From Sinimarinibacterium sp. NLF-5-8 (GTDB taxonomy: Bacteria; Pseudomonadota; Gammaproteobacteria; Nevskiales; Nevskiaceae), in the NCBI RefSeq assembly GCF_010092425.1, contig NZ_CP048030.1:2057501-2121500 (forward strand): a stretch of 64,000 nt of DNA, given 5' to 3'. The first letter of the stretch is position 1, and each line of letters begins with the position of its first letter. The notes beneath the pieces are model-generated. The model did not search any database, was not told the DNA's origin, and saw only the letters and a list, made by a program, of their open reading frames with translations. Both the position numbers and the translations under genes were made by a program. Positions 330 through 21,925 of this stretch are shown piece after piece.

Positions 330-842
330 CTCAACACAATTTTGCATGAACTGGGCATTGACCCCAACCTGCCCGCCGCGCGCGGGTTGCCGCTGTGCGA
401 GTCGGCGCAAACGCTGGTGTTTTGTGGTTTGGGCAGTGATGGCCGCGACAAGTTTTTAATCCCGGAGGCGGCGCGCGCGTGGCGGGCGATGTGCGCGGCG
501 GCGGCAACCGAAGGCGTGGCGCTGCGGCTGATTTCGGCCTTTCGCAGCATCGAGTTTCAAGCGGCCTTGATTCGCGCGCGCGTGAATCAAGGCATGTCGC
601 TGATCGATGCGCTGAAAATCAACGCGCCACCCGGTTACAGCGAGCATCACACCGGGCGCGCGGTGGACATCGGCACGCCCGGCTGTGCGGCGCTGGATGA
701 GGCGTTTGAGCACACCCCCGCATTTGCCTGGCTCAGCGCGCGCGCCGCAGCGTTTGGCTTTGCACTGAGTTACCCACGCAACAACCCGCAAGGGTTTTTA
801 TACGAGCCGTGGCATTGGTGTTTTGCGCGCGCGAGTCAGTGA
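321..842 (+). CDS. M15-family D-alanyl-D-alanine carboxypeptidase-like protein
   Basis: A protein of 173 residues of the VanY/M15B zinc peptidase family, which trims D-Ala from peptidoglycan stem peptides. Family signatures are the SAFRS motif, SEHHTGRAVDIG carrying the zinc-binding His and Asp, and EPWHW near the C-terminus carrying the last zinc His. I chose ATG at 321; a TTG at 306 in the same frame would add five residues, and neither has a good ribosome binding site. No signal peptide or lipobox is visible, unusual for an enzyme acting in the periplasm, so it may be cytoplasmic (recycling) or the start may be misjudged. It stands alone, convergent with mtnC. Confidence 0.8.
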   Translation: MKQLNTILHELGIDPNLPAARGLPLCESAQTLVFCGLGSDGRDKFLIPEAARAWRAMCAAAATEGVALRLISAFRSIEFQAALIRARVNQGMSLIDALKINAPPGYSEHHTGRAVDIGTPGCAALDEAFEHTPAFAWLSARAAAFGFALSYPRNNPQGFLYEPWHWCFARASQ

Positions 843-5078: not shown

Positions 5079-6599
5079 GTGACGGCCGCGCCCACCCGCG
5101 AAACCGCAGGCCATGGCGACACCATTGCCGTGGCCGACCTCGGCTCCAACAGCTTTCACCTGATGGTTGCCCGCGTCAGCGGTGACGATATCCAGGTGAT
5201 CGACCGCCTGCGCGAACCGATCCGCCTGGCCGCCGGACTCGACAGCGAGCGCCACCTGCAGCCTGCGGTTGCCGAGCGCGCGCTGCAATGCCTGCAACGG
5301 TTTGGACAGCGCATTCAGGAGATTCCTGCCCAGCATGTGCGCGCGGTGGGCACCAACACCCTGCGCAAACTGCGCAACGGCCAGGATTTTATGAGCCAGG
5401 CCGAGGCCGCGCTGGGACACCCGATTGAAATCATTTCCGGCATCGAAGAAGCGCGCCTGGTCTACGGCGGCATCACCCACGGCATGTCGACCGAACCGCG
5501 CCGGCTGGTGGTGGACATTGGCGGCGGCAGCACCGAGCTGATCATTGGCCGGGGCGCTGAGCCGCGCCTGATGGAATCGGTTTCGCTGGGCTGCGTCACC
5601 CACACCCAGCGTTTTTTTGCCGATGGCATCATCAATGCCAACCGTTTTTACCGCGCGCGCACCGCCGCCGGCGTAGAGCTGGAGTTTTTGCAGCGCCAGT
5701 ACCGCAAGGCCGGATGGGATCTAGCCGTGGGCAGCAGCGGCAGCATTCGCGGCGTGTGGCGGGTCATCGTGGCCCAGGGCTGGAGCAAGCAGTTGATCAC
5801 CCGCGAGGCACTGGATCAAACCATCGAACTGCTGCTGAGCCGCCGCCATATCAGCGAAATCGACTTTGAAGACCTGCGCGAAGACCGCCGCCCGATTTTT
5901 GCCGGCGGACTGGCGGTTCTCGCCGGCATTTTCGACACGCTGCACATCGAGTCGATGGAAGCTTCCGAGCGCAATCTGCGCGAAGGGCTGATCTACGACT
6001 TGCTGGGACGGCTCCAGCTCGGCGGCGGCGATGTGCGCAGCCAATCGGTGCGGGCAATGGCGCGCCGCTATGGAGTTGATCCACGCCACGCCGAAGACAT
6101 GGCGCGCACGGCGCTGGCGATCTTTGATCAGGTGGCTGATCCGTGGTCACTGGTGCCGCTGTGGCGACAACTGCTGTATTGGGCGGTTCAGCTGCATGAG
6201 GTGGGGCTGACCATCACCCACAACGGCTACCACAAACATGGCGACTACATCTTGCGCCACAGTGACTTGCAGGGCTTTTCGCAAACCGAGCAAAAACTTC
6301 TGGCAACCCTGGTGCGCCTGCATCGCGGACGTTTTGCGCTGGATGTGCTCAACGAGCTGCCGGTGGCCTGGGTCGAACCGATCAAACGCATGGCAATGAT
6401 CCTGCGCCTGAGCTACCTGCTCCATCGCTCGCGCGCGCCGGACACCCATCCGCCGATCCGCGTCAAAACCCTGCGGCGCGGCTATGAAGTCAGTTTTGAC
6501 AAGGCCAAGTGGCTGACCAAGCGCCCCCTGACCCGCGCCGACCTCGAATACGAGGCCGATTTACTCGATCGCGCACACTTGCAGCTCAAGATCAGCTGA
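5079..6599 (+). CDS. ppx: Exopolyphosphatase of the Ppx/GppA family
   Basis: Releases phosphate from the ends of inorganic polyphosphate; some family members also hydrolyse pppGpp. The ASKHA fold is shown by VADLGSNSFHLMVARV (about residues 18-33) and LVVDIGGGSTELIIG (the phosphate-binding loop). The C-terminal half has the HD-like helical domain with LHEVGLTITHNGYHKHGDY. At 506 residues it matches two-domain Ppx proteins. The start codon is GTG, placed just before the conserved region. It is convergent with ppk1, the opposing enzyme; only 13 bases separate the two stops and no terminator is visible between them. Confidence 0.92.
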   Translation: MTAAPTRETAGHGDTIAVADLGSNSFHLMVARVSGDDIQVIDRLREPIRLAAGLDSERHLQPAVAERALQCLQRFGQRIQEIPAQHVRAVGTNTLRKLRNGQDFMSQAEAALGHPIEIISGIEEARLVYGGITHGMSTEPRRLVVDIGGGSTELIIGRGAEPRLMESVSLGCVTHTQRFFADGIINANRFYRARTAAGVELEFLQRQYRKAGWDLAVGSSGSIRGVWRVIVAQGWSKQLITREALDQTIELLLSRRHISEIDFEDLREDRRPIFAGGLAVLAGIFDTLHIESMEASERNLREGLIYDLLGRLQLGGGDVRSQSVRAMARRYGVDPRHAEDMARTALAIFDQVADPWSLVPLWRQLLYWAVQLHEVGLTITHNGYHKHGDYILRHSDLQGFSQTEQKLLATLVRLHRGRFALDVLNELPVAWVEPIKRMAMILRLSYLLHRSRAPDTHPPIRVKTLRRGYEVSFDKAKWLTKRPLTRADLEYEADLLDRAHLQLKIS

Positions 6600-6612
6600 G
6601 CGCGCGCGTCAC

Positions 6613-8733
6613 TCAAACCGCCTCCATCAGTCGCAGCTGCACCGCGCGCTCACCATCGGCAGGCGGGCGCTGATAGCTGCCATCGGGCTGCAACACCCAG
6701 CTTTGCGCGGTATCACCCAGATAGGCCAGCAAATTGGCCTGCACGCGCGCGCGGATCGCATCATCCAGCAGCGGAAACGCCACTTCCACGCGCCGGTACA
6801 GGTTGCGCTCCATCCAATCGGCACTGGCCAGATACAGCTCCGGCGCGCCGCCGTTGGCAAAGCTGTAGCAGCGGTCGTGCTCCAAAAAGCGCCCCACAAT
6901 GGATCGCACCTGAATGTTTTCCGACAGTCCCGGTACGCCAGGGCGCAGCGAGCACATGCCGCGCACGATCAGATCCACCTGCACACCGGCCTGGGAAGCG
7001 CGATACAGCGCGGCAATCACCTTGGGATCGACCAGCGCATTCATCTTGGCAATGATCCGCGCCGGCTTGCCCGCCTGCGCATGCGCCATCTCGCGATCGA
7101 TCCGCGCCAGTAGCGCCTCGGCCAGCGTGAAAGGCGATTGCAGCAAATGCTGCAAGGGCGTCAGCCGCCCCAGACTGGTGAGCTGCAAAAACACCGCATG
7201 CACGTCCTGACACACCTGCGGATTGGCCGTGAACAAGCCGTAATCGGTATACAGCCGCGCAGTGCGCGGGTGGTAGTTGCCGGTGCCCAGATGTGCATAC
7301 GGATGCAGGCTGGCAACGTCGCCATCCCGTTTTTCCCGACGCACGACCAAGCACATCTTGGCGTGAGTCTTATAGCCAACCACGCCATAAACCACATGAG
7401 CACCGACGGCCTGCAGCTTTTCGGCCAGATCGATATTGGCCTCCTCATCAAAGCGCGCGCGCAGTTCCACCACCACGGTGACTTCCTTGCCGTTGCGCGC
7501 CGCCTCGATCAAAGCCTCCACCACCGCAGACTGGTCGCCCGTGCGGTACAGCGTTTGCTTGATCGCCAGCACCTTGGGGTCGCGCGCGGCGGCACGCAAA
7601 AAATCAACCACCGCCACAAACGATTCATACGGATGGTGCAACAGTTGGTCGCGCTCACGGATCGCCGCAAACATCTCCTTGGCAGAGCCGGAAAATGCCT
7701 TGGGAATCCGCGGCGTATGCGCCGGATATTTCAGATCAGGACGGTCAACCAGATCGGGGATCATCATCAGTCGATGCAGATTCACCGGCCCGGCCACGCG
7801 ATACACATCGTCGGGTGTCAGCTGCGCCACGCCCATCAAAAACTGCCACATCTCATCCGGACAGTTGTGCGCAACCTCCAGCCGTACGATATCGCCCCAT
7901 TGGCGCTGCGAAAGCTCCCCTTCGAGCGCCTCCAGCAGATCCTTGATTTCTTCAACATCCACCAGCAGATCAGAGTTGCGCGTCAGCCGGAACTGATAGC
8001 AGCCGGTGGCCTCCATGCCCGGAAACAGATCGTCGATATACGCGTGAATGACGCTGGACAAAAACACAAAATCATTCGGCCCGGCGCCACTGGCCTCCGG
8101 CGGCAGCTGAATCAGCCGCGGCAGCGCGCGCGGCGCCTGCACAATCGCAAAGCCGGTATTGCGACCAAACGCATCCTTGCCCGACAACGGAATAATGAAG
8201 TTCAGCGACTTGTTCAAAATCCGCGGAAACGGATGCGCCGGATCAAGCCCGATCGGCGACAACACCGGCGCCAGCTCATGCTGAAAATAGTTTTTCAGCC
8301 ACGCATTCATCTGCGGCGTCCACTCCGCGCGCCGCAAAAACCGCACCCGCTCCTGATCCAGCGCCGGTACGATCACATCATTGAACGCGCTGTATTGCGC
8401 ATCCACCAGCTCATGCGCGCGTCGGGAGATCAACGCCAGCGTCTCGGCCGGCGTCAAGCCGTCACTGCCGCGCTGTGTGGGCGACAGCTCCGCCATCTGC
8501 TGCAACCCAGCCACACGGATCTCAAAAAACTCATCCAGATTCGAGCTGGAAATGCACAAAAACTTGAGCCGCTCCAGCAGCGGCACCGACGCATCCAGCG
8601 CCTGTTCCAGCACCCGCTGATTGAACTCCAGCAGCGACAGCTCCCGATTCAGAAAAAGCTCGGTCGGCGCAAATTGCTGCGCCAGCTCGGAATCCCCTTC
8701 CAGAGTCGGCGCGTGCAACATCATTTCTGGCAT
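6613..8733 (-). CDS. ppk1: Polyphosphate kinase 1
   Basis: Makes polyphosphate from ATP reversibly through a phosphohistidine. The N-terminal domain begins FLNRELSLLEFNQRVLEQA (about residues 30-48), typical of PPK1. The catalytic phospholipase D-like half contains YAHLGTGNYHPRTARLYTDY, whose His is the autophosphorylated residue, and DRCYSFANGGAPELYLASAD near the end. About 706 residues, normal length. The ATG at 8733 is preceded by GAGGGGTGG; a GTG two codons upstream lies inside that ribosome binding site. It probably follows ndh on the same strand (gap about 90 bases). Confidence 0.95.
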   Translation of the reverse strand: MPEMMLHAPTLEGDSELAQQFAPTELFLNRELSLLEFNQRVLEQALDASVPLLERLKFLCISSSNLDEFFEIRVAGLQQMAELSPTQRGSDGLTPAETLALISRRAHELVDAQYSAFNDVIVPALDQERVRFLRRAEWTPQMNAWLKNYFQHELAPVLSPIGLDPAHPFPRILNKSLNFIIPLSGKDAFGRNTGFAIVQAPRALPRLIQLPPEASGAGPNDFVFLSSVIHAYIDDLFPGMEATGCYQFRLTRNSDLLVDVEEIKDLLEALEGELSQRQWGDIVRLEVAHNCPDEMWQFLMGVAQLTPDDVYRVAGPVNLHRLMMIPDLVDRPDLKYPAHTPRIPKAFSGSAKEMFAAIRERDQLLHHPYESFVAVVDFLRAAARDPKVLAIKQTLYRTGDQSAVVEALIEAARNGKEVTVVVELRARFDEEANIDLAEKLQAVGAHVVYGVVGYKTHAKMCLVVRREKRDGDVASLHPYAHLGTGNYHPRTARLYTDYGLFTANPQVCQDVHAVFLQLTSLGRLTPLQHLLQSPFTLAEALLARIDREMAHAQAGKPARIIAKMNALVDPKVIAALYRASQAGVQVDLIVRGMCSLRPGVPGLSENIQVRSIVGRFLEHDRCYSFANGGAPELYLASADWMERNLYRRVEVAFPLLDDAIRARVQANLLAYLGDTAQSWVLQPDGSYQRPPADGERAVQLRLMEAV

Positions 8734-8823
8734 AACCACCCCTCAAACCGTAGGTCACGCAGTGTATGCCAAGCACTCCGGCCTCGCCCCGCAAGCACCC
8801 ACCTGCCTGCGCAGCCGCAACCC

Positions 8824-12768: not shown

Positions 12769-14451
12769 TTAACGCGTGTAAGCGTGTTCAGCAGCCTGAG
12801 CAAAGTTAACGGTTGCATCACCAAAATCACGGGTCTTCAGCATGAAGCCAGCAACCGGGTAAGCAGCGCCGGTGAAGTCAATCCGCAACCAGCCGGTTTC
12901 TGCACCAGGCAGATCGGAGGTGCTGAGCGCCAGAGCGTTCGGGCTACCCAGAACCGACGCCTTACTGCGCGCGTTAGGACCAATCTTGATCACGTTGGCT
13001 TCAAACGAGAGGTTGTCGGAATCGATCACGCCGGGAGGGAACGGTGACGGGACGGTGGTATCCGGAGCCGCAACAGCCGAGCGCTCTTCACGATCGTAGA
13101 AGGTGTATTCGAGCTCGATGTTGGAAACACCATCGTTGCCGTCCTGGAACTTCTCGGTAAACGGTGCGAGCGGGCAAACTACGCCGGCGGCAAGCTGCTC
13201 AGGCTGAGCCGGGAGCTTGGCAATCGGAGTAAAGCCTGCATAAGGGACACCCGCAGCGCCGTTAGCCACACCAGCTGCGCTGGTGCTGTTACGGTACTGG
13301 TTACAAGCCGACTGAATGTTGCGAGCATCTTCGTCAACGTGGTAACGCTTGGTGGGGAAGGTCACAACCCATTCAGCATCCGAGGTAACACCCGGCTCGG
13401 TACGGTTTTCAGCCCATTCGTTGGCAACCGAGTTCGCAGCAATACCGGCTTCGAGAACGCCCAGGTTCGTCGTGGTCCACAACCCTGCACTGGAAGCAAT
13501 CGCCGGCTCAAGGAAGTACGGGAACTGCTGAGCGGTCACAAGGTTTTGACCCACGGCATAGCCCGTGACGGAAAGCGCCGGAATCGACGTACCAAAACCT
13601 TTGCTGGTCTTGATCAAGCTGGCATTCACCTTCAGCTGTGCCGCTGCGGTAACAGGGCCATAACCAAACGGATTATTCGTGCCAGCAGCAACGCCACCAA
13701 CCGCCGTATTCAACGGCCAGCCAGCACGCGCCAGCGGGTTGCCTGAGCCATTAACGCCGGGGATGGCCACGCCATTGACTGCATCATTCGCCGTGAACGA
13801 AGGAATGTTCGAGGCACGTTGAAAATCACGGTCAACTTGAGCGCAATCGCGCGGTTGGCCATTAACGTGCTTGGCATAATACGCGGTGCTGCCGCGCGTC
13901 ACGCCTGCAACGCCAACGGAATCAACCAGCGTGGTGTTGACATCATCAACGCGATCATCTTCACCCATCACCAACAGAGTGATGTAGCCATCACGCAGAC
14001 GCTCGACGCTACCTTTGGTTGCATCATGGTCACGGAAAGTGGCTGCGCCGGCATCGGAGTAAGCCACTTCGTTGGCAGACAAACCAGCCGTGCGAACGCT
14101 GTCGGGGCTCGTGCAAGAGTTGTCAGCGGTGCTCAGGAAGGGGCGGCCATCTTTGATACGGATGGTTGCGGTCCAAACGTCGAACGGCGACAGCGCCAGG
14201 TTAAAGTCCAGCACGTCGCGCGAGTTGCGGCTTTCGTGCATGCGGAACTTGACTGCCAGTGATTTGTCGGACGTATTGGTCACGTTGACAAGAGTTTCCC
14301 AGCCGTCGTTGACGGTGTAGTAAGGGATAACCACAGCCGAGCCGGTGCCGGTCGTGGACACGGTTTGTGCCGATGCCGGCGACATTGCAAAACCAGCGGC
14401 GATCGCTGCGGACGCCCCCAGCACTCGCAATTTATTAAAAGTGCTACTCAT
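12769..14451 (-). CDS. Exported protein of unknown family, possibly abundant surface protein
   Basis: A protein of 560 residues whose family I do not recognise. The ATG at 14451 has GGAG eight bases upstream and is followed at once by a clear signal peptide (LGASAAIAAGFAMSPASAQ), so a longer frame to 14505 is unlikely. The mature start GSAVVIPYYTVNDGWETLVN, then VTNTSDKSLAVKFRMHESR, looks like a beta-sandwich or adhesin fold. There are several Cys (e.g. DNSCTSPDS, QSACNQYRN, VVCPLAPF) that could form disulfides. There is no barrel ending, lipobox or sorting signal. Base use is less GC-biased than its neighbours and the terminator is strong, which together suggest high expression. Monocistronic. 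Confidence 0.7.
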   Translation of the reverse strand: MSSTFNKLRVLGASAAIAAGFAMSPASAQTVSTTGTGSAVVIPYYTVNDGWETLVNVTNTSDKSLAVKFRMHESRNSRDVLDFNLALSPFDVWTATIRIKDGRPFLSTADNSCTSPDSVRTAGLSANEVAYSDAGAATFRDHDATKGSVERLRDGYITLLVMGEDDRVDDVNTTLVDSVGVAGVTRGSTAYYAKHVNGQPRDCAQVDRDFQRASNIPSFTANDAVNGVAIPGVNGSGNPLARAGWPLNTAVGGVAAGTNNPFGYGPVTAAAQLKVNASLIKTSKGFGTSIPALSVTGYAVGQNLVTAQQFPYFLEPAIASSAGLWTTTNLGVLEAGIAANSVANEWAENRTEPGVTSDAEWVVTFPTKRYHVDEDARNIQSACNQYRNSTSAAGVANGAAGVPYAGFTPIAKLPAQPEQLAAGVVCPLAPFTEKFQDGNDGVSNIELEYTFYDREERSAVAAPDTTVPSPFPPGVIDSDNLSFEANVIKIGPNARSKASVLGSPNALALSTSDLPGAETGWLRIDFTGAAYPVAGFMLKTRDFGDATVNFAQAAEHAYTR

Positions 14452-15253
14452 TAAAAAATCTCCATTGAAGAAGTCACAGAGGTACGAGCTGACAAAGTCT
14501 GACAATCGCCGCTCTTAAGTTGATAAACAACCGCAGACACGTCAAACCCGAAAGCGGGCAGGACGATCGCAGAAGTATACATCCGCTTTGAACAAATGGC
14601 GACCCCCAGAACACTCCCAACTACACGAACCTCTGGCAGGCCAGAGATTCCGCGAGCTGCACGCCCTCCCTTGAATTGCTCCGTGCGTTTTACGGCACAG
14701 AACCGCGCTTAGGAGCACGTTTGGGCATTGTGACTCACGCGATCACCGAGATCAAGCGTTGCAGCGCCATAAAAACACCCCCTGTTTGCGGGGGGCAAAA
14801 AGATTATGTTGTTGTTTTACTTGATATTTTAATTTTATCTTGGTTTTGTTTTCTTGACTTATCAAAAAAATATGTTCTGGTTGAACGTTGCTTTTATTCG
14901 GCTTAACGGTTGGCAAACAATGCTGCGATGGCGCTTGTGCCCGCCTCTGCCCAGCGGTTTTTGCAGCGCCCGCGACCACGACGCGGCCAAAGAATGAACG
15001 GATGCAGGGTTCCGATACCTGCAAAAAATGGAAGCCCCCCGCTTCCCCGACCATGCACTATTCAAAGGTTTGAATGTGCGCTACCTCACAAAACCTGCTG
15101 CAGATCTGCATCCTGGCAAAGGCGGCAAGCCCCGCGCGCGAGTCATTCCCACCCGCCGGTCCGGCGCAGAGGCAGACGCACCAATGGCCGCGTGAACTTC
15201 AGGCTCTTGTATCCTTTGCGGCTGTTAACGCGTCTGCCTTTTGAGTATTTGAA
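14452..15253. other. Long non-coding stretch with an AT-rich island
   Basis: About 800 bases between divergent genes. 14771-14796 is a GC hairpin, CCCCC and GGGGG around a seven-base loop, with a T run in the minus direction. 14797-14900 is strongly AT-rich, quite unlike the rest of the window. Short frames here lack a ribosome binding site and family features. The region must hold the promoters for both flanking genes. Confidence 0.6.
14771..14796 (-). terminator. Possible minus-strand terminator with no assigned gene
   Basis: A five- to six-base-pair G/C stem (14778-14782 with 14790-14795) is followed on the minus strand by GTTTTTA. No recognised minus-strand gene lies just upstream. It may end a small transcript from 14800-15100 or be a relic. 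Confidence 0.35.
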
Positions 15254-18200
15254 ATGTCTGCTCCGCCATCCGATGCCGCCGTTGCCGTGCCAAGTCCTGA
15301 TGTTGTCCCGCCAGATATTGTGTTGATTCTGGGAATGCATCGCAGTGGCACGTCAGCGGTGACGCGCGCGCTGAGCTTGCTGGGGGCGCGGTTGCCCAGT
15401 GATCTGATGCCCGCCGCCGAGGACAACGCGACAGGCTTTTGGGAGTCGGTTGCGGTTCAGCAGCTCAATGACCGGATTCTGACGGCGCTGGGTTCGCGCT
15501 GGGATGACTGGCGGGCGATTTCGCTTTCAACACTAAGCACAGCGCAATACGCAGCATTTGTGGATGAAATTGCAGCACTTCTGGATGCAAACCGTGGCGC
15601 GGCACCGCTGGTGTTGAAGGATCCGCGCATGTGCCGTCTGTTGCCGATCTGGCGCGCGGCGTTTGAAAAGCTGGGCTTGACGGTGGCGTGTGTGCTGGCG
15701 CTGCGCGATCCGTGGGCGGTGGCGGCTTCGCTGAACCGGCGCAATGGGTTGGCGATGGAGTACAGCCAGTTGTTGTGGCTGCGGCACATGCTGGACGCGG
15801 AGGCGGCAAGCCGTGATGTGCCGCGCGCGGTGGTGAATTACGACGCGATGCTGACGGACTGGCGCGCGGCGTTGCACCCTGCGCTTGCAGTGTTGGGACT
15901 GACGCCCGATGAGGCGTGCGCGCAACAGATTGATGCGTTTCTGGACAACGGGCTGCGCCACCACGGCAACGCACCCGCAAACCATACCCTTTTACCTTGG
16001 GTGACGACGGCAGGGTCGGCCTTGCAGGCGTTGACGCTGCCGGAATCTGTTGCGGCGCTGGATGTGCTCGCGCAGACGCTGGACAGGCTGACGCCCCAGG
16101 GCGCGGCGCTACTGGGCTGCACACCCGGCGTTGCGCATCCAATCGCCAAAAGTAACGGGATGTTGTTGGCACAACTCCCCGCAGACGGTCTTGCCACGCA
16201 GTCGCTGTACATGACGCCCGCCGTCGCCGCACAAGCACGCAAGGTGGTGGATGACGCAGCGGCGGAATCGCTGCCGCGTTTCAGCATCATCATGCCGACG
16301 TGGAACCGCGCGGCAACGTTGATGACGGCGGTGGATTCGGTGCTGGCGCAGTCGTATCCGCACTGGGAGCTGATTGTTTGCGATGACGGCAGTACGGACG
16401 ACAGCGCAGCGCAGTTTGCCGCGCGCCATGCCGATGCAATGGCGCGCGGACAGGTGCGCTATTTGCAGTTGCCCCACGCCGGCCCCAGCGCGGCGCGCAA
16501 TGCGGGGCTGGCGGTGGCGCAGGGCGATTGGGTGGCGTATCTGGATTCGGACAACACCTGGCACGCGGATTATTTGTTGATGGTGGCCGCCACGGCGCTG
16601 CGCCATCCAGCACGCGCCTGCACTTATACGGCGCAGTTGGTACACGACCGCGCGCGGAATCAGGATTACATCCGCTGGCTGGCATTCGACTGGGGGCGTT
16701 TGCTAATCGGTAACACGATCGACATCAACATTTTTGCGCACACGCGAGCGTTGTGGACGCAGTGCGGTGGGTTTGATGAGCACCTGCCCCGCGTGGAGGA
16801 TTGGGATTTGATCTTGCGCTACACGCGCGAGCACCCGCCGCAGCCGATTCCGTTTGTGCTGAGTGATTACTACCTTGCGCCAACGTTGAATAATTTGTCG
16901 CTGACTCGCCCGCAAGCAAATGCAGAGATGGTGGTGCGCCTGAAGATGGCGCTGGACTATCGCCCGTCTGCACAGGCGCCGTTTGCCGAGGACGCGGCCA
17001 CCTGGCAGTACACGCTGCAAACGGCGTGGCAGTTTGCGCAGAAGGCCAATGCCCGTGAGCGACGCGAGATCGTCGAGAAACTACGGCAGGAACGCGCGGA
17101 GCAAGCGCAGCATCACGCGCAGGAGCGTGAGCGGCTGGAACAACGGATCAAGGCGTTGAAGGCGCAAGCCGATGCGCTGGGCGCGCAGGTGACGCAAAAG
17201 CAGACGGCACTGCAAGCCGAGCAACAACACAACAAAGCACTCGATGCGCAGGCAAATACGTTGCGCAGACAGGTCAAGCAAGCACAGGCGGAAATCAAAG
17301 CCGGACAACAGCAGGTGACGGCGCTGCTCGCAGAGCGCGCAAGCAGCCGTCAGCGCACGCTCAAAATCCTGCACGCGCAGCGCAGTCACGCGCAGGCGTG
17401 CGTGCCGCCGCTAGGGCGCTTGGCGTTGCCGCCGCGCACCTTGTTGGGACAAACGCTCTCCCCACGCGCGCAACTGACGCTGCGCAAACAGGCGCGCGCG
17501 TTGATGACCAGCGGCTTGTTTGATCCGGTGTGGTATCTGCAAACCGCGCCCGACGTGGCGCGCAGCGGGATTCATCCGGTGTGGCACTGGCTGTTGCGCG
17601 GCTGGCAGGAGAAGCGCCAACCCAATGCGCTGTTCGATACCGGCTGGTACCTGCGCCGCTACGCCGACGTGGCACGCGCCAAGGCCGATCCGCTGCTGCA
17701 TTACCTGCACCACGGCGCGGGCGAAGGGCGCGATCCTTGCCCGTTGTTTTCAACCCACTGGTATCTGGAACAGAACCCCGACGTGGCCGCAGCCAAGGTC
17801 AATCCGCTGGGGCATTACTTGCAGTTTGGTCAGAATGAAGGCCGCTGGCCGTGCGCGTGGTTTGCGCCGCAGTGGTATTTGCAGCACAACGCGGATGTGG
17901 CGGCAGCGGGGATTCCGCCGCTGGAGCATTACCTGTTGGCGGGCGGTTTTGAGGGGCGCGATCCGTGTCCGGCGTTTGACAGTGACTGGTATCTGCAAAC
18001 CTACCCGGACATTGCGCGCGCAGGGCGGCATCCGTTGCTGCATTTTGTGATGCACGGGTTGGCAGAAGGACGCAAGCCAGCGCCCAACCAGCCGGTGACG
18101 GCGCGGGTGGCCGATGTGCCGATCACAGATCGCACGCTGTCTCTCAGCTCGCCGCGCGCGCGCGCGATGCAGGTGACTGAAGCACACACGCAGCACGCAC

Positions 18201-21200
18201 AAGCGCAGTTGAAACGCCGCCCCTGCGGGCTATTCAGCGTGGTCATGCCCAGCTGGAACCGCGCGCAGACGCTGGCGGCAGCGGTGGATTCGGTACTCGC
18301 GCAAACCCACACCGATTGGGAACTGCTGATTTGCGACGACGGCAGCACCGATGACACGGAGGCGATGCTGGCGCAACGCTACGCGGCGCAAATGGCGTCG
18401 GGAAAAATCCGTTATCTCAAGCTGCCGCACGGCGGCGTGTGCGCAGCGCGCAATGCGGGGCTGGCGGCGGCGCGCGGCGAGTGGATTGCCTATCTGGATT
18501 CCGACAACACTTGGCGGCCTGAATATCTGTTGATGATGGCGGCGGCGCTGTCCGCCGAACCGCAGCGGCGCACCGCGTATGCGGGGCTGCATGTGCATGA
18601 TCAGGCGGGCGAGCGCGAGTTCATCCGCTGCCGCTCGTTTGACTACGGCGAACTGCTGGCGCGCAATTACATTGATCTGAACGTGTTCGTCCATCATCGC
18701 GCGGTCTACGCGCAGTTGGGCGGTTTTGATGACGCGCTGCGGCGGCTGGTGGATTGGGATTTGATTCTGCGCTATACGCACCTGCAACCGGCGCTGTTCG
18801 TGCCGTATGTGCTGTGCGATTACTACATTGGCGCGGCGCTCAACAACATCACGCTCACCGAACCGCTGTCGGACAACGAAATCCGCGTGCGCCGCAAACA
18901 CGCCACCACCGTCATCAGCAGCGGCGCAGAACCGCTGCGGCTGGCCTATGTGCTGTGGGACTGGCCGGCGCTGTCGCAAACCTTCGTTCTGGAAGAACTG
19001 CACGAACTGCGGCGACGCAACGTGGACGTGCGCGTGTATTACGCAGTTGCGCCCGACCGCGCCGCCACCGAACTGCCCGATGTGGTGGCGACGCAGGTGG
19101 CCGACGTGGTGGAACTCACCCGCGCGCTCCAAACCGACCGCCGCAACTGGATGCACAGCCACTTTGCGATCCCCGCCGTGCGCAAGCTGGTGTGGCCTGC
19201 GGCGGAGCAACTCGGCATCGGCTTCAGCTTCATGCCCCATGCCATCGACATTTTTCCGCGCCGCACGCACGGCACCAATCAGATCGACCAAGTGGCGCAA
19301 AGCCCGCTGTGCGCGCGCGTGATGGTGCATGGCGCGTATCACCGCCAGTTTTTGATTGAACGCGGCGTGCCTGCCGAAAAAATCATCATGACGCCGCAGG
19401 CGGTCAACGTCGCCGACATCCGCGTGCCCGAAGTCACCGCGCGCGCGCGCAAACCCGGCGCACCGTTGCAGGTGTTGGCGATTGCGCGTTTTGTTGAGAA
19501 AAAAGGGCTGGAATACCTGATCGAAGCCGCCGCGCACCTGCCTGCGGGCAGTGTCGATATTCAGATTTACGGCTACGGCAGCCGCGAGGAGGCGTATCGC
19601 GCGCAAATCAAAACCCTCGGCGTGGCCGATCGCGTGCATCTGCTGGGCGCGTTTGAAGGCACCGAGCCGCTGCGCGCGGCGCTGGCACAGGCCGACGTGT
19701 TCTGCCTGCCCTGCGTGCAAGCCGAAGATGGCGACACCGACGGGATGCCCACGGTGTTCTTTGAAGCGATGGCCGCAGGCGTGCCCTGCGTCGGCACCAC
19801 GGTGGCAGCGATTCCCGACTTCATCACCCACGGCATCAATGGCTTTTTAGTGCCGCCGCGCGACGCGCAGGCACTGGCCGCAATGCTCACGCAGATTGCG
19901 CAGATGCCCGCCGCCGCGCTGGCAGGCATCGCGCGCGCCGCGCATCGCGGCGTGGATGCGCATCTGGGCGCAGCGCACACGGTGGATACCCTGCTCGACG
20001 TGTGCGCCAAACCGCCGCTTGATCTGTTCATGGTCACTTATCACCGCGACCGCTACGGCGAATGGGACGCCACCGAGCGCGCGATTCGCAGCGTGTTGGA
20101 TCGCACCACCACGCCGATGATGCTCACCATTGTTGATAACGCCAGCGAACCCGCGTTTCTGCAACGCCTGCACGCACTCGCGCAGGGCGACGCGCGCGTG
20201 CGTATCGTCGAACTGGCCGACAACCGCCTGTGCGGCCCCGCGTCCAACGTCGCACTGGAACTGGCGCGCTCCGAACAGGTGTTCTACGTCTGTAGCAACG
20301 AAGGCTATGTGACGCGCACCGGCTGGGAACGCCCCTGCCTGCGCCACATGCGCAACCATCCCGACGTGGCGATGGGCGGGCATCTGGTCGCCTCGCCCGC
20401 GTGGACGGACGGCGCGGGCTACCTCAAGCAACCGTGGTTCAGCGACTTTCGCAATCCCGAATTTGCGCAGCAACATCCGCAGCGCGAGTTCTTCCACGTT
20501 CAGGGCGGCTTTTATGTGCTGCGCCGCAGCGTGTTCCAGCAAGACGGCGGCTTCAGCACGCGCCGCCCACAGGCGCAGACCGATGTGGAATATTGCTACT
20601 ACCTCGAAAGCAAAGGGCACAAACTGGGCAGCATCCCCGAAATGGTCGTGCTCTCCAACAAAACCCGCCCCGGACTCGACGCGCTGATCGACGAAACCAC
20701 CACCGCCGTGCATCCGGTATTCACGCACAACGTCGCACAAATCGACGCCAGCACTGGCGCGGTCGAAGCCATCACCAGCCGCTGCAACCTGTGCAACTGG
20801 TCAGGCAACGCCGTGCGTGACGCAGACGCGGTGAGCTTCACCTGCCCGCAATGCGCCAGCAGCGCGCGCGACCGCGCCGTGTACCGCTGGCTGGCCGCAT
20901 CCAACCTGCACCATCGCGGCAAAACGCTCGATGGCCGTGGGCTGGGCAAAGCCGCGCAGCAAACGCTGGCGGGGATGTTCACGCTGGTGGACGGCGACGA
21001 TGCCGACGTGCGCGCCGCAGACATGCCAGAACCGCGTCCGAGCCGGATGCTGGGGATTGCGCCCAGCCCGCTGCCCGACCCGCTGCCTGACGATGGCGAC
21101 GACGCGCTGTCCACGATCTGCGTCATCGTCCGCAACGAAGCGCAGGGCATTGCGGAGTGGGTGGCGTACCAACGCGCCATCGGCTTTGACCGCGTGCTCG

Positions 21201-21925
21201 TGTATGACAACGGCAGCACCGATGGCACCCGCGAAATTCTGGAGCGCATCCGCGCCGTCGATCCGGTCATCACCGTCGTGCCGTGGCCGGACACGTCAGA
21301 CCTGCGTTCGCCACAGGAGCAGGCGTACAACGACGCGCTCACGCGCTGCAAGACCGAGTGGATCGCCTTCTTCGACGCCGACGAATTTCTGGTGCTGCAC
21401 GCAGCGCCGGACGTGAACACCATGCTTTCCGCGATGCCCGACGACGCGGGCGCCATCGCTGTCAACTGGCTGATCTTCGGCTCGTCAGGCCGGGAAGAAC
21501 CGGGCGAAGGTCTGGTGATCGAACGCTTCCTTCAATGCGCCCATGACCGCAATCCGCACCGAACCATCTGCAAAACCATCGTGCGCAGAAAAAACGTCCG
21601 CGCGATGCGCGTGCATACCGCCGATCTAAAGGAAGGCGTATACGTCAACGCCTCAGGACAACCCGCACCGCTGCTGAACCTGCACCGCACGGAGCAGTGC
21701 CAGTACGAACACGCCGTATTGAATCACTACCTCCTCAAAAGCCGCTCGGAGTTCCGCGAAAAAATCGCACGAGGCCGCGCCAGTCGGGCACGCAACGCAC
21801 CCGACAAATACGCCTCACGCGAAAATCCCCGCTATTGGGATGAGCATGACTACAACGACAAGGAAAACACCGACGCACTGCGTTGGAAAAATGCCGTTGT
21901 CGCGTACATGGAGAAAGCCGGGTAG
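15254..21925 (+). CDS. Giant modular sulfotransferase-glycosyltransferase fusion, 2223 residues
   Basis: Visible parts in order: sulfotransferase-like domain (about 20-300) with PAPS-loop motif LILGMHRSGTSAVTRAL; GT-A family 2 domain (343-565) with FSIIMPTWNRA, CDDGSTDDS and YLDSDNTW; coiled coil (597-703); five 38-residue repeats (755-944) of the form FDxxWYLxxxPDVAxAxxxP; second GT2 domain (994-1216), closely similar to the first; GT-B family 4 domain (about 1228-1573) with VLAIARFVEKKGLEYLIEAA and DGMPTVFFEAMAAGVPCVG; third, more divergent GT2-like domain (about 1590-1826); CxxC-CxxC ribbon (about 1841-1870; CNLCNWSG, FTCPQCASSARDR); and a C-terminal GT2/GT92-like domain (1950-2160) with CVIVRNEAQGIAEWVAYQRA and FFDADEFLVL. 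The frame is open throughout and codon use is uniform, so this is one gene. Probable role: assembly of a surface glycan or glycosylation of an envelope protein; substrates unknown. No signal peptide or membrane segment. No other polysaccharide genes adjoin it. Confidence 0.9.
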   Translation: MSAPPSDAAVAVPSPDVVPPDIVLILGMHRSGTSAVTRALSLLGARLPSDLMPAAEDNATGFWESVAVQQLNDRILTALGSRWDDWRAISLSTLSTAQYAAFVDEIAALLDANRGAAPLVLKDPRMCRLLPIWRAAFEKLGLTVACVLALRDPWAVAASLNRRNGLAMEYSQLLWLRHMLDAEAASRDVPRAVVNYDAMLTDWRAALHPALAVLGLTPDEACAQQIDAFLDNGLRHHGNAPANHTLLPWVTTAGSALQALTLPESVAALDVLAQTLDRLTPQGAALLGCTPGVAHPIAKSNGMLLAQLPADGLATQSLYMTPAVAAQARKVVDDAAAESLPRFSIIMPTWNRAATLMTAVDSVLAQSYPHWELIVCDDGSTDDSAAQFAARHADAMARGQVRYLQLPHAGPSAARNAGLAVAQGDWVAYLDSDNTWHADYLLMVAATALRHPARACTYTAQLVHDRARNQDYIRWLAFDWGRLLIGNTIDINIFAHTRALWTQCGGFDEHLPRVEDWDLILRYTREHPPQPIPFVLSDYYLAPTLNNLSLTRPQANAEMVVRLKMALDYRPSAQAPFAEDAATWQYTLQTAWQFAQKANARERREIVEKLRQERAEQAQHHAQERERLEQRIKALKAQADALGAQVTQKQTALQAEQQHNKALDAQANTLRRQVKQAQAEIKAGQQQVTALLAERASSRQRTLKILHAQRSHAQACVPPLGRLALPPRTLLGQTLSPRAQLTLRKQARALMTSGLFDPVWYLQTAPDVARSGIHPVWHWLLRGWQEKRQPNALFDTGWYLRRYADVARAKADPLLHYLHHGAGEGRDPCPLFSTHWYLEQNPDVAAAKVNPLGHYLQFGQNEGRWPCAWFAPQWYLQHNADVAAAGIPPLEHYLLAGGFEGRDPCPAFDSDWYLQTYPDIARAGRHPLLHFVMHGLAEGRKPAPNQPVTARVADVPITDRTLSLSSPRARAMQVTEAHTQHAQAQLKRRPCGLFSVVMPSWNRAQTLAAAVDSVLAQTHTDWELLICDDGSTDDTEAMLAQRYAAQMASGKIRYLKLPHGGVCAARNAGLAAARGEWIAYLDSDNTWRPEYLLMMAAALSAEPQRRTAYAGLHVHDQAGEREFIRCRSFDYGELLARNYIDLNVFVHHRAVYAQLGGFDDALRRLVDWDLILRYTHLQPALFVPYVLCDYYIGAALNNITLTEPLSDNEIRVRRKHATTVISSGAEPLRLAYVLWDWPALSQTFVLEELHELRRRNVDVRVYYAVAPDRAATELPDVVATQVADVVELTRALQTDRRNWMHSHFAIPAVRKLVWPAAEQLGIGFSFMPHAIDIFPRRTHGTNQIDQVAQSPLCARVMVHGAYHRQFLIERGVPAEKIIMTPQAVNVADIRVPEVTARARKPGAPLQVLAIARFVEKKGLEYLIEAAAHLPAGSVDIQIYGYGSREEAYRAQIKTLGVADRVHLLGAFEGTEPLRAALAQADVFCLPCVQAEDGDTDGMPTVFFEAMAAGVPCVGTTVAAIPDFITHGINGFLVPPRDAQALAAMLTQIAQMPAAALAGIARAAHRGVDAHLGAAHTVDTLLDVCAKPPLDLFMVTYHRDRYGEWDATERAIRSVLDRTTTPMMLTIVDNASEPAFLQRLHALAQGDARVRIVELADNRLCGPASNVALELARSEQVFYVCSNEGYVTRTGWERPCLRHMRNHPDVAMGGHLVASPAWTDGAGYLKQPWFSDFRNPEFAQQHPQREFFHVQGGFYVLRRSVFQQDGGFSTRRPQAQTDVEYCYYLESKGHKLGSIPEMVVLSNKTRPGLDALIDETTTAVHPVFTHNVAQIDASTGAVEAITSRCNLCNWSGNAVRDADAVSFTCPQCASSARDRAVYRWLAASNLHHRGKTLDGRGLGKAAQQTLAGMFTLVDGDDADVRAADMPEPRPSRMLGIAPSPLPDPLPDDGDDALSTICVIVRNEAQGIAEWVAYQRAIGFDRVLVYDNGSTDGTREILERIRAVDPVITVVPWPDTSDLRSPQEQAYNDALTRCKTEWIAFFDADEFLVLHAAPDVNTMLSAMPDDAGAIAVNWLIFGSSGREEPGEGLVIERFLQCAHDRNPHRTICKTIVRRKNVRAMRVHTADLKEGVYVNASGQPAPLLNLHRTEQCQYEHAVLNHYLLKSRSEFREKIARGRASRARNAPDKYASRENPRYWDEHDYNDKENTDALRWKNAVVAYMEKAG
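17516..18085 (+). repeat. Five tandem 38-codon repeats inside the giant glycosyltransferase
   Basis: Five units of exactly 38 residues, each with WYL near position 6, a D-V/I-A core (DVARSG, DVARAK, DVAAAK, DVAAAG, DIARAG), H-Y/W/F-L/V and a closing EGR-x-P-like turn. The DNA copies have diverged but the length is invariant, implying a selected structural unit, perhaps a helical scaffold between glycosyltransferase domains. Confidence 0.88.

Follow-up and report, generated by a model that had tools for sequence, protein, structure and literature searches.

A 2223-residue fused glycosyltransferase with a sulfotransferase-like head as a candidate polymerase-terminator in Sinimarinibacterium sp. 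NLF-5-8

In the O antigens exported by ATP-binding cassette (ABC) transporters that are described by Kelly et al. 2024 (PMC11231755), a terminator stands across a coiled-coil molecular ruler from the polymerase glycosyltransferases (GTs). Terminator, ruler and polymerase all share one chain in O12 WbbB, and one chain of Klebsiella O7 carries a methyltransferase-kinase, a coil and two GT2 modules (PMC11231755). Here we analyzed a stretch of 64,000 nucleotides from Sinimarinibacterium sp. NLF-5-8 (contig NZ_CP048030.1, positions 2,057,501 to 2,121,500), referred to here as the window, in which a single open reading frame (ORF) encodes a giant protein of 2223 residues, referred to here as the window protein. 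Its terminator-ruler-polymerase layout is of a known kind. We propose, at what we judge to be an even chance of being right, that the window protein is a cytoplasmic single-chain polymerase-terminator for an ABC-exported surface polysaccharide, which would be capped with sulfate at a measured length. The sulfotransferase is assigned the part of terminator, the coil that of ruler and the GTs that of polymerase because relatives swap the enzyme in the N-terminal slot, because slot enzyme and coil follow a common pattern and because the same layout has been published. The proposal draws on the observed domain content, conservation, exporter linkage of many relatives, KpsE co-occurrence and pattern of slot enzymes and coils.

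From N to C terminus the window protein consists of the head, GT2-A, coiled coil, repeats, GT2-B, GT4, divergent GT-A domain, zinc ribbon and GT92-like tail, as follows (window coordinates; the exporter cluster of the same genome, G000, is given last).
15254..21925, plus strand: whole gene, 2223 residues (frame and translation, Pfam, own-genome search)
15317..16099, plus strand: sulfotransferase-like head, residues 22-282, with LGMHRSGTSA, KDPR and RDPxxxAAS; proposed chain terminator (Pfam, alignment, hhalign)
16274..16951, plus strand: GT2 domain A, residues 341-566, with DSDN and VEDWDLILRYT intact (Pfam, alignment, motif scan)
17021..17368, plus strand: coiled coil, about residues 590-705, best heptad window 626-681; proposed ruler (heptad scoring against shuffles)
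17507..18097, plus strand: five 38-residue repeats (WYLxxxPDVAxAxxxPLxHYLxxGxxEGR), residues about 752-948 (motif, model)
18230..18898, plus strand: GT2 domain B, residues 993-1215, with DSDN and LVDWDLILRYT intact (Pfam, alignment, motif scan)
18935..19978, plus strand: GT4 domain, residues 1228-1575 (DGMPTVFFEAMA) (Pfam, alignment)
20015..20758, plus strand: divergent GT-A domain, residues 1588-1835, with DNAS, YVCSNEG replacing DxD, HVQGG, GGF and DVEYCYY (alignment, model, Foldseek)
20783..20854, plus strand: four-cysteine zinc ribbon, residues 1844-1867, followed by a tail remnant (alignment)
21125..21922, plus strand: GT2_4 or GT92-like C-terminal domain, residues 1958-2223, with FFDADEF intact (Pfam, alignment)
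G000:C1:2228130-2238098: KpsMTED-like cluster, about 149 kb from the giant gene (Pfam, NCBIfam)

The frame starts with ATG and runs for 2223 codons with no internal stop. It occurs in full length once in its own genome, a single contig of 3,200,809 bases (G000:C1:2072754-2079422, inside a 2226-codon open frame). Pfam matches on the protein include GT2 (PF00535, expect value (E) 4.9e-87, four stretches), GT4 (PF13692, 1.1e-32), Glyco_tranf_2_4 (1.4e-28) and GT92 (PF01697, 1.2e-17). A preliminary description of this DNA, made from its letters alone, had read it as one 2223-residue frame with a sulfotransferase-like head, two GT2 domains, a divergent GT, a GT4, a GT92-like tail, a coil, repeats and a zinc ribbon, and the intact ORF, the Pfam matches and the alignments bear this out. 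The profile searches that it recommended place GT2, GT4 and GT92 well over their cut-offs while Sulfotransfer_3 stays sub-threshold. An assembly chimera is ruled out because fused relatives occur in independently sequenced genomes of several phyla (e.g., G046, 47% identity over residues 636-1911). Catalytic motifs have not been lost from most domains; the GT modules retain theirs, a conserved Glu occupying the DxD position in one.

We found matches at E 1e-40 or better in 8 of 61 near genomes, the own included, and seven of the eight encode long fused proteins: 2223 residues in the own genome, 2056 in G039, 2045 in G049, 2038 in G043, 1944 in Sinimarinibacterium flocculans (G006), 1934 in G046 and 1589 in G011. 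The eighth, G031, holds a 411-codon frame that matches the head only. At E 1e-20 the core block was present in two of 369 genomes (one being the own) from an even draw of the class Gammaproteobacteria. A collection of 20 named loci, including Proteobacteria, Leptolyngbya, Phycisphaerales, Tepidibacter, Sulfurovum and Sulfurimonas, contributed fused proteins of 1288-2045 residues with the GT4, GT-A and ribbon block in 16 cases, three of which are the G046, G049 and G006 genes met again and one of which, L047, is interrupted by a contig end. Overall, the fused relatives span 1288-2056 residues and several phyla. Four loci were left out of this count and of the 20-protein set used below: L048 (600 residues, starting inside GT4), L054 (255 residues), L055 (1204 residues, weak match) and L056 (310 residues, weak match). 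The full-length query against genome contigs returned 13 pattern matches and no relatives. As the preliminary description had suggested, domain order was surveyed in these genomes: the block is constant in the 16 named-locus proteins (G011 lacks it), while the part N-terminal to it varies, with or without head, coil and repeats and with either GT2 or GT4.

Exporter genes lie near many of these giants. Among the six near relatives, a KpsE gene stands at most 11 kb from the giant in five, and in G049 the two are on separate contigs. A KpsE-type gene is present in all seven near genomes with a giant versus 13 of 61 overall (hypergeometric 3.9e-6, with genomes treated as independent of kinship), and exporter homologues were found near the giants of G006, G011, G039 and G043. 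In the distant loci, the giant is immediately preceded by ABC2_membrane and ABC_tran genes in L039 and L040. Such genes lie 2.9 kb upstream of it in L038 and near it on the opposite strand in L043, and L050 has a permease 3.9 kb downstream plus an ATPase match; Wzt_C is present in the L038 and L039 loci. Seven of the 16 named loci contain an ATPase match by tblastn (E 1e-30 or better), and none of 13 control stretches, each of at most 20 kb, reached that level, the best being 2e-11 in one.

The own genome carries such an exporter as well. Its cluster encodes an SLBB/Poly_export protein, a BexC/CtrB/KpsE-family protein (1.2e-83), an ATPase, a KpsM-like permease, a double GT2 protein, a sulfotransferase and a 947-residue sulfotransferase-repeat-GT2 protein, and a WecA-like gene adjoins it. 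KpsM, KpsT, KpsE and KpsD-type genes are all found there, with NCBIfam scores for KpsE and KpsM under the curated cut-offs and the KpsD-type call given by the Poly_export and SLBB matches. In S. flocculans the counterparts of five of these genes, the KpsM counterpart lying outside the comparison, are 68% (SLBB), 58% (KpsE), 76% (ATPase), 53% (double GT2) and 46% (sulfotransferase) identical, and there the counterpart cluster runs straight into a giant of the window-protein family. The G011 giant combines a window-like head, repeats and GT2-B with the C-terminal half of the own-cluster 947-residue protein (45% identity over 396-941), a fusion that ties the window gene to the cluster 149 kb away. 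The 947-residue protein itself (G000:C1:2235255-2238098; L033:13255-16098, minus strand), with a Sulfotransfer_3 N-terminus (6.4e-18) and a GT2 domain, is a second sulfotransferase-GT fusion in this genome; its repeats resemble those of the giant at 50-54% BLAST identity and were missed by the repeat motif pattern. PF05159 (KpsC/KpsS), presumably the Kdo (3-deoxy-D-manno-oct-2-ulosonic acid) linker enzymes, is present in five of the seven genomes with a giant and has no match in G000 or G006. A KpsC/KpsS-primed capsule was rejected for the own genome on this ground, and because neither this genome nor S. flocculans has the family, the type of exporter does not decide whether there is a terminator.

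Since relatives lie near exporters, KpsE accompanies the giant in seven of seven genomes and a cluster stands about 149 kb away in the own genome, the window protein most likely works as one component of a polysaccharide pathway that depends on an ABC transporter, not as a stand-alone maker of a complete short glycan. The preliminary description had supposed the opposite, a complete short glycan built alone, for which we found no support. Its observation that no polysaccharide genes flank the giant is right locally, as none was found among ten window ORFs scanned between 2697 and 27702, and none of six other matches like the window protein in the own genome falls inside the window; as a guide to function it misleads, given the relatives beside ABC exporters and the own cluster.

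We take the head to be a sulfotransferase-fold domain with intact motifs and a predicted activity. Seven aligned heads share 48 invariant columns, which include LGMHRSGTSA, KxPR and RxPxxxAxS, and both the first and the last of these are kept in 7/7. We take LGMHRSGTSA and RxPxxxAxS to be the 5'-phosphosulfate loop and the 3'-phosphate block of sulfotransferases that use 3'-phosphoadenosine-5'-phosphosulfate (PAPS). Sulfotransfer_3 was matched weakly in four of five relatives scanned (E 4.1e-5 to 1.8e-3) over nearly the full profile (2 or 3 to 208-215 of 216); the fifth, G043, had no match at 0.01. The head profile also aligns weakly with the sulfotransferases of flanking genes (hhalign E 5e-4, probability 31). 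An adenosine 5'-phosphosulfate (APS) kinase, for PAPS, is encoded once in the own genome, and equally in 11 of 14 control genomes.

We scored the N-terminal slot and the coil in 20 proteins: the window protein, six from near genomes and thirteen from the named collection, with G043/G049 and L050/L052 as near pairs and with L037, L049 and L051, which are the same genes as G046, G049 and G006, counted once. The slot held a sulfotransferase in eight, Methyltransf_24 in three and neither in nine, where neither denotes no match to the two slot profiles, whole-protein Pfam having been run on 11 of the 20. The methyltransferases (L040, L041 and L043; E 2.6e-10 to 3.5e-15) belong to three of five headless relatives scanned whole; the other two, L046 and L050, gave no such domain at the slot. 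A coil was called strict if at most 1 of 200 shuffles scored as well and at least 35% of its residues were polar or charged; in the window protein no shuffle of 200 scored as well as residues 626-681. Strict coils were found in 9 of 11 proteins with a slot enzyme versus one of nine without (L047; Fisher p 0.0055, near pairs counted and kinship uncorrected). The two slot-enzyme proteins that failed, G011 and G049, did so with 4 and 2 of 200 shuffles.

The window protein displays three features of the single-chain polymerase-terminators: a predicted N-terminal capping-type enzyme, a coil and, C-terminal to the coil, the GT2-B, GT4, GT-A and GT92-like modules. We hypothesize that three modules sharing one side of the coil, GT2-B, GT4 and the divergent GT-A, would add repeat sugars to a lipid-linked chain, while the repeats might dock the protein to partners or to the glycan. 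The coil would keep the N-terminal sulfotransferase at a fixed distance such that only chains reaching the head would receive a sulfate cap, GT2-A perhaps adding a final sugar before capping, and once capped, the chain would be exported by the KpsMTED-like system whose genes lie about 149 kb away. These are predictions with respect to every activity, the sugars, the sulfate cap and the choice of this exporter.

Several points weigh against this proposal. The window head itself scores E 0.012 and 16.3 bits with Sulfotransfer_3, where the curated cut-off is 27 bits, the best relative reaches 24.4 bits and is also under it, and PDB sulfotransferases are matched at E 0.03 at best, which counts against a sulfotransferase identity. 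The coil was scored by a scheme of our own, with a cut-off fixed after a first look at the data, nine of the 20 proteins carry neither slot enzyme, and, in contrast to relatives, GT2-A is placed between head and coil. Regarding export, the giant gene does not adjoin its own exporter cluster, 6 of the 13 KpsE-carrying genomes have no giant at E 1e-40, and 9 of the 16 named loci gave no ATPase match at 1e-30 in the flank examined, several being on short contigs. Published terminated O antigens rely on a carbohydrate-binding module on the ATPase (PMC11231755), and the own-cluster ATPase, of 246 residues, has no Wzt_C match. The Haemophilus influenzae b capsule is ABC-exported and has no terminator (PMC11231755). 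Finally, no sulfate is reported in the Aeromonas salmonicida O antigen despite a gene with a sulfotransferase domain beside wbbB (PMC4483657), so that the presence of a sulfotransferase gene at a locus of this type does not necessarily imply a sulfated product.

Regarding the GT domains, the DSDN motifs of the window protein stand at residues 431 and 1082 and DADE at 2041. GT2-A and GT2-B are closely similar, as the preliminary description had it (56% identical). A recent tandem duplication was rejected, since GT2-B has a closer match (66%) in the first GT2 of G011. The position of GT2-A between head and coil is confined to the window protein among the proteins compared. GT4 enzymes usually have E-x7-E; here the motif is D-x7-E, with Asp in place of the first Glu in 6/6 sequences aligned. 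The divergent GT-A domain has no DxD. In its place stands Y-x-C-x-x-E with an invariant Glu in all 17 rows of an alignment that includes the window protein and L048 and excludes L052 and L054-L056; these rows also keep HxQGG, GGF and DVEYxYY. Its AlphaFold model has a mean predicted local distance difference test (pLDDT) value of 89.1 and matches GT-A enzymes such as SpsA by Foldseek (E 2.2e-10). Because of this match, the model indicates that the domain is a GT-A with a conserved change and not a decayed one, and since the Glu is common to 17/17 rows, the change is ancestral. The GT92-like tail was not found in the giant relatives compared and had one 29% match, in a 339-codon frame, among 60 other near genomes.

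The repeat scaffold of the preliminary description is real, its five units starting at 760, 798, 836, 874 and 912, a spacing of exactly 38 residues. The repeat model is all-helical (mean pLDDT 90.2). Against the PDB, Foldseek returned nothing significant for it (an S-layer entry at E 2.4 was the best of 8 matches with E no higher than 10), the repeat-profile sequence search gave no match, and the repeats have no Pfam match. The module recurs in proteins that neighbor giants: a 1058-residue repeat and GT2 protein lies near the giant in G043 and G049, the latter an Oceanococcus metagenome-assembled genome (L031:13665-16841 and L030:13906-17082, minus strand). The N-terminal part of the Sphingobium relative (L050:5765-11239) holds repeated stretches of another type (GWVWxxDxPDxxLxVEAVLD...), unlike the 38-residue repeats and with no Pfam match. 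The zinc-ribbon cysteines, at 1844, 1847, 1864 and 1867, are all kept in 16 of the 17 rows aligned; in the exception, from Leptolyngbya (L038:7634-11968), two of the four are replaced (CNIS...CPVS) and the remaining domain is conserved. A methyltransferase match follows the ribbon in G046, L041 and L043, and in the G046 relative (L026:7199-13003, minus strand) the first ribbon is followed by another zinc ribbon and a methyltransferase, which form an extra ribbon-methyltransferase tail. In the window protein the tail after the ribbon is shortened and then followed by the GT92-like domain.

The alternative that survives best is that the protein is a multi-module capsule polymerase whose sulfotransferase acts on a sugar in every repeat unit and whose coil is a spacer or oligomerization element. 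We consider this unlikely, if well worth weighing: in Vibrio KMM 8419, a sulfated capsule is reported and assigned to a cluster in which KpsDMET genes accompany free-standing sulfotransferase genes (PMC11641403), the ATPase of the own exporter gave no Wzt_C match, and the own cluster holds further sulfotransferases. However, methyltransferases replace the sulfotransferase at the same end of the protein, slot enzyme and coil co-occur as terminators should, and an enzyme acting on each repeat unit needs no seat at the far end of the coil. A stand-alone machine that makes a complete short glycan would fit five GT modules and a sulfotransferase-like domain on one chain as well as the ten flanking ORFs free of polysaccharide genes, but we judge it improbable given the exporter genes near many relatives, the KpsE co-occurrence and the counterpart cluster in the own genome; moreover, Pfam showed no lipid-initiating domain in the protein, whereas a WecA-like gene adjoins that cluster. 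Still less probable is that the GTs decorate a protein, the flagellum or a lipid with no exported chain; the weak similarity of the GT92-like tail to GmaR (E 0.0034) and the isolated location of the gene are set against exporter linkage in distant phyla and flanking ORFs among which the scan found no flagellar or protein-glycosylation gene. A displaced relic, now decaying after leaving its cluster, is the least credible alternative, since the distance of about 149 kb, the truncated and replaced tail after the ribbon and the missing DxD of the GT-A are met by a fully open frame, by DxD motifs intact in GT2-A, GT2-B and the GT92-like tail and by a GT-A change that is ancestral.

The scanned neighbors of the giant gene include a PpiC-type foldase, a 578-residue protein with no Pfam match and an RNA pseudouridine synthase. 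The 578-residue protein adjoins the giant gene (window 12769-14505, minus strand), has a signal-peptide-like stretch near its start and is perhaps a surface protein. Convergent genes for a Ppx/GppA phosphatase and a polyphosphate kinase (window 5079-8739) are ordinary. The guanine-plus-cytosine content of the giant gene (0.61-0.66) resembles that of the right flank and exceeds that of the left, with no clear composition island.

Among the titles and abstract openings listed, none concerned a giant or fused glycosyltransferase or a glycosyltransferase-sulfotransferase fusion, and by title no paper under the genus name dealt with such a protein. Mann et al. 2019 (Glycobiology), the survey in which terminators of this sort would most likely appear, lay outside the reach of the search, and among the matches listed, by titles and abstract openings, none concerned a sulfate chain terminator. 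The preliminary description had put this protein forward as an undescribed system; its layout is published (PMC11231755), whereas other elements look new. As far as the literature was searched, these are a sulfotransferase in the terminator slot, whose novelty is not established, the 38-residue repeat module and the DxD-less GT-A fixed beside GT4 across phyla; the number of modules in one chain is new within the same bounds. Tentatively, and at somewhat less than an even chance, we suggest a bolder formulation: a one-polypeptide sulfate-capping chain-length machine, in which the head would be the terminator and the coil the ruler, an undescribed 38-residue repeat module common to other GT proteins of the pathway would dock the assembly, and the GT4, DxD-less GT-A and zinc-ribbon block would be a new mobile GT pair across several phyla. 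If true, sulfate would join methyl, phospho-methyl and Kdo among the caps that the polymerase-terminator model covers, and polymerization, measuring and sulfation would be united in one chain, making coil-based length control testable in one gene and offering a compact route toward end-sulfated polysaccharides. Two new targets for structural study are the DxD-less GT-A and the repeat module, for which the PDB offered no significant match.

Among known systems, the E. coli K4 chondroitin polymerase, which has two GT2 domains, is the best PDB sequence match of the window protein (2z87, at GT2-B, 2.2e-26). We know of no terminator, ruler or sulfotransferase in this enzyme. TagF-like capsule polymerases and the H. 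influenzae b polymerase, presumably Bcs3, differ from the window protein in their TagF-type or ribosyl/ribitol-phosphate transfer domains, none of which Pfam matched in it. They are alike in being multi-domain proteins of ABC-exported capsules (Cps1B, Cps3D and Cps7D, PMC5974469; H. influenzae b, PMC11231755). The sulfated-capsule cluster of Vibrio sp. KMM 8419 likewise combines KpsDMET and sulfotransferase genes, the sulfotransferases being separate genes (PMC11641403). ORF6 of Klebsiella O7 and WbdD of E. coli O9a/O8 place a methyltransferase(-kinase) terminator before a coil ruler, a layout that the L040, L041 and L043 relatives resemble; they differ in their phospho-methyl or methyl cap and in a polymerase that is partly on other proteins (PMC11231755). 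WbbB of A. salmonicida is a multi-domain protein of 1122 residues for an ABC-exported O antigen, in which an extra GT domain goes with an extra sugar, but the sulfotransferase is there a separate 216-residue gene between wzt and wbbB (PMC4483657). WbbB of Klebsiella pneumoniae O12, likened here by description and not by sequence, differs in its Kdo transferase terminator, its two polymerase GTs and the carbohydrate-binding module of its Wzt, of which the own-cluster ATPase shows none; as proposed for the window protein, it has an N-terminal terminator, a coil ruler, C-terminal polymerase GTs and ABC export (PMC11231755).

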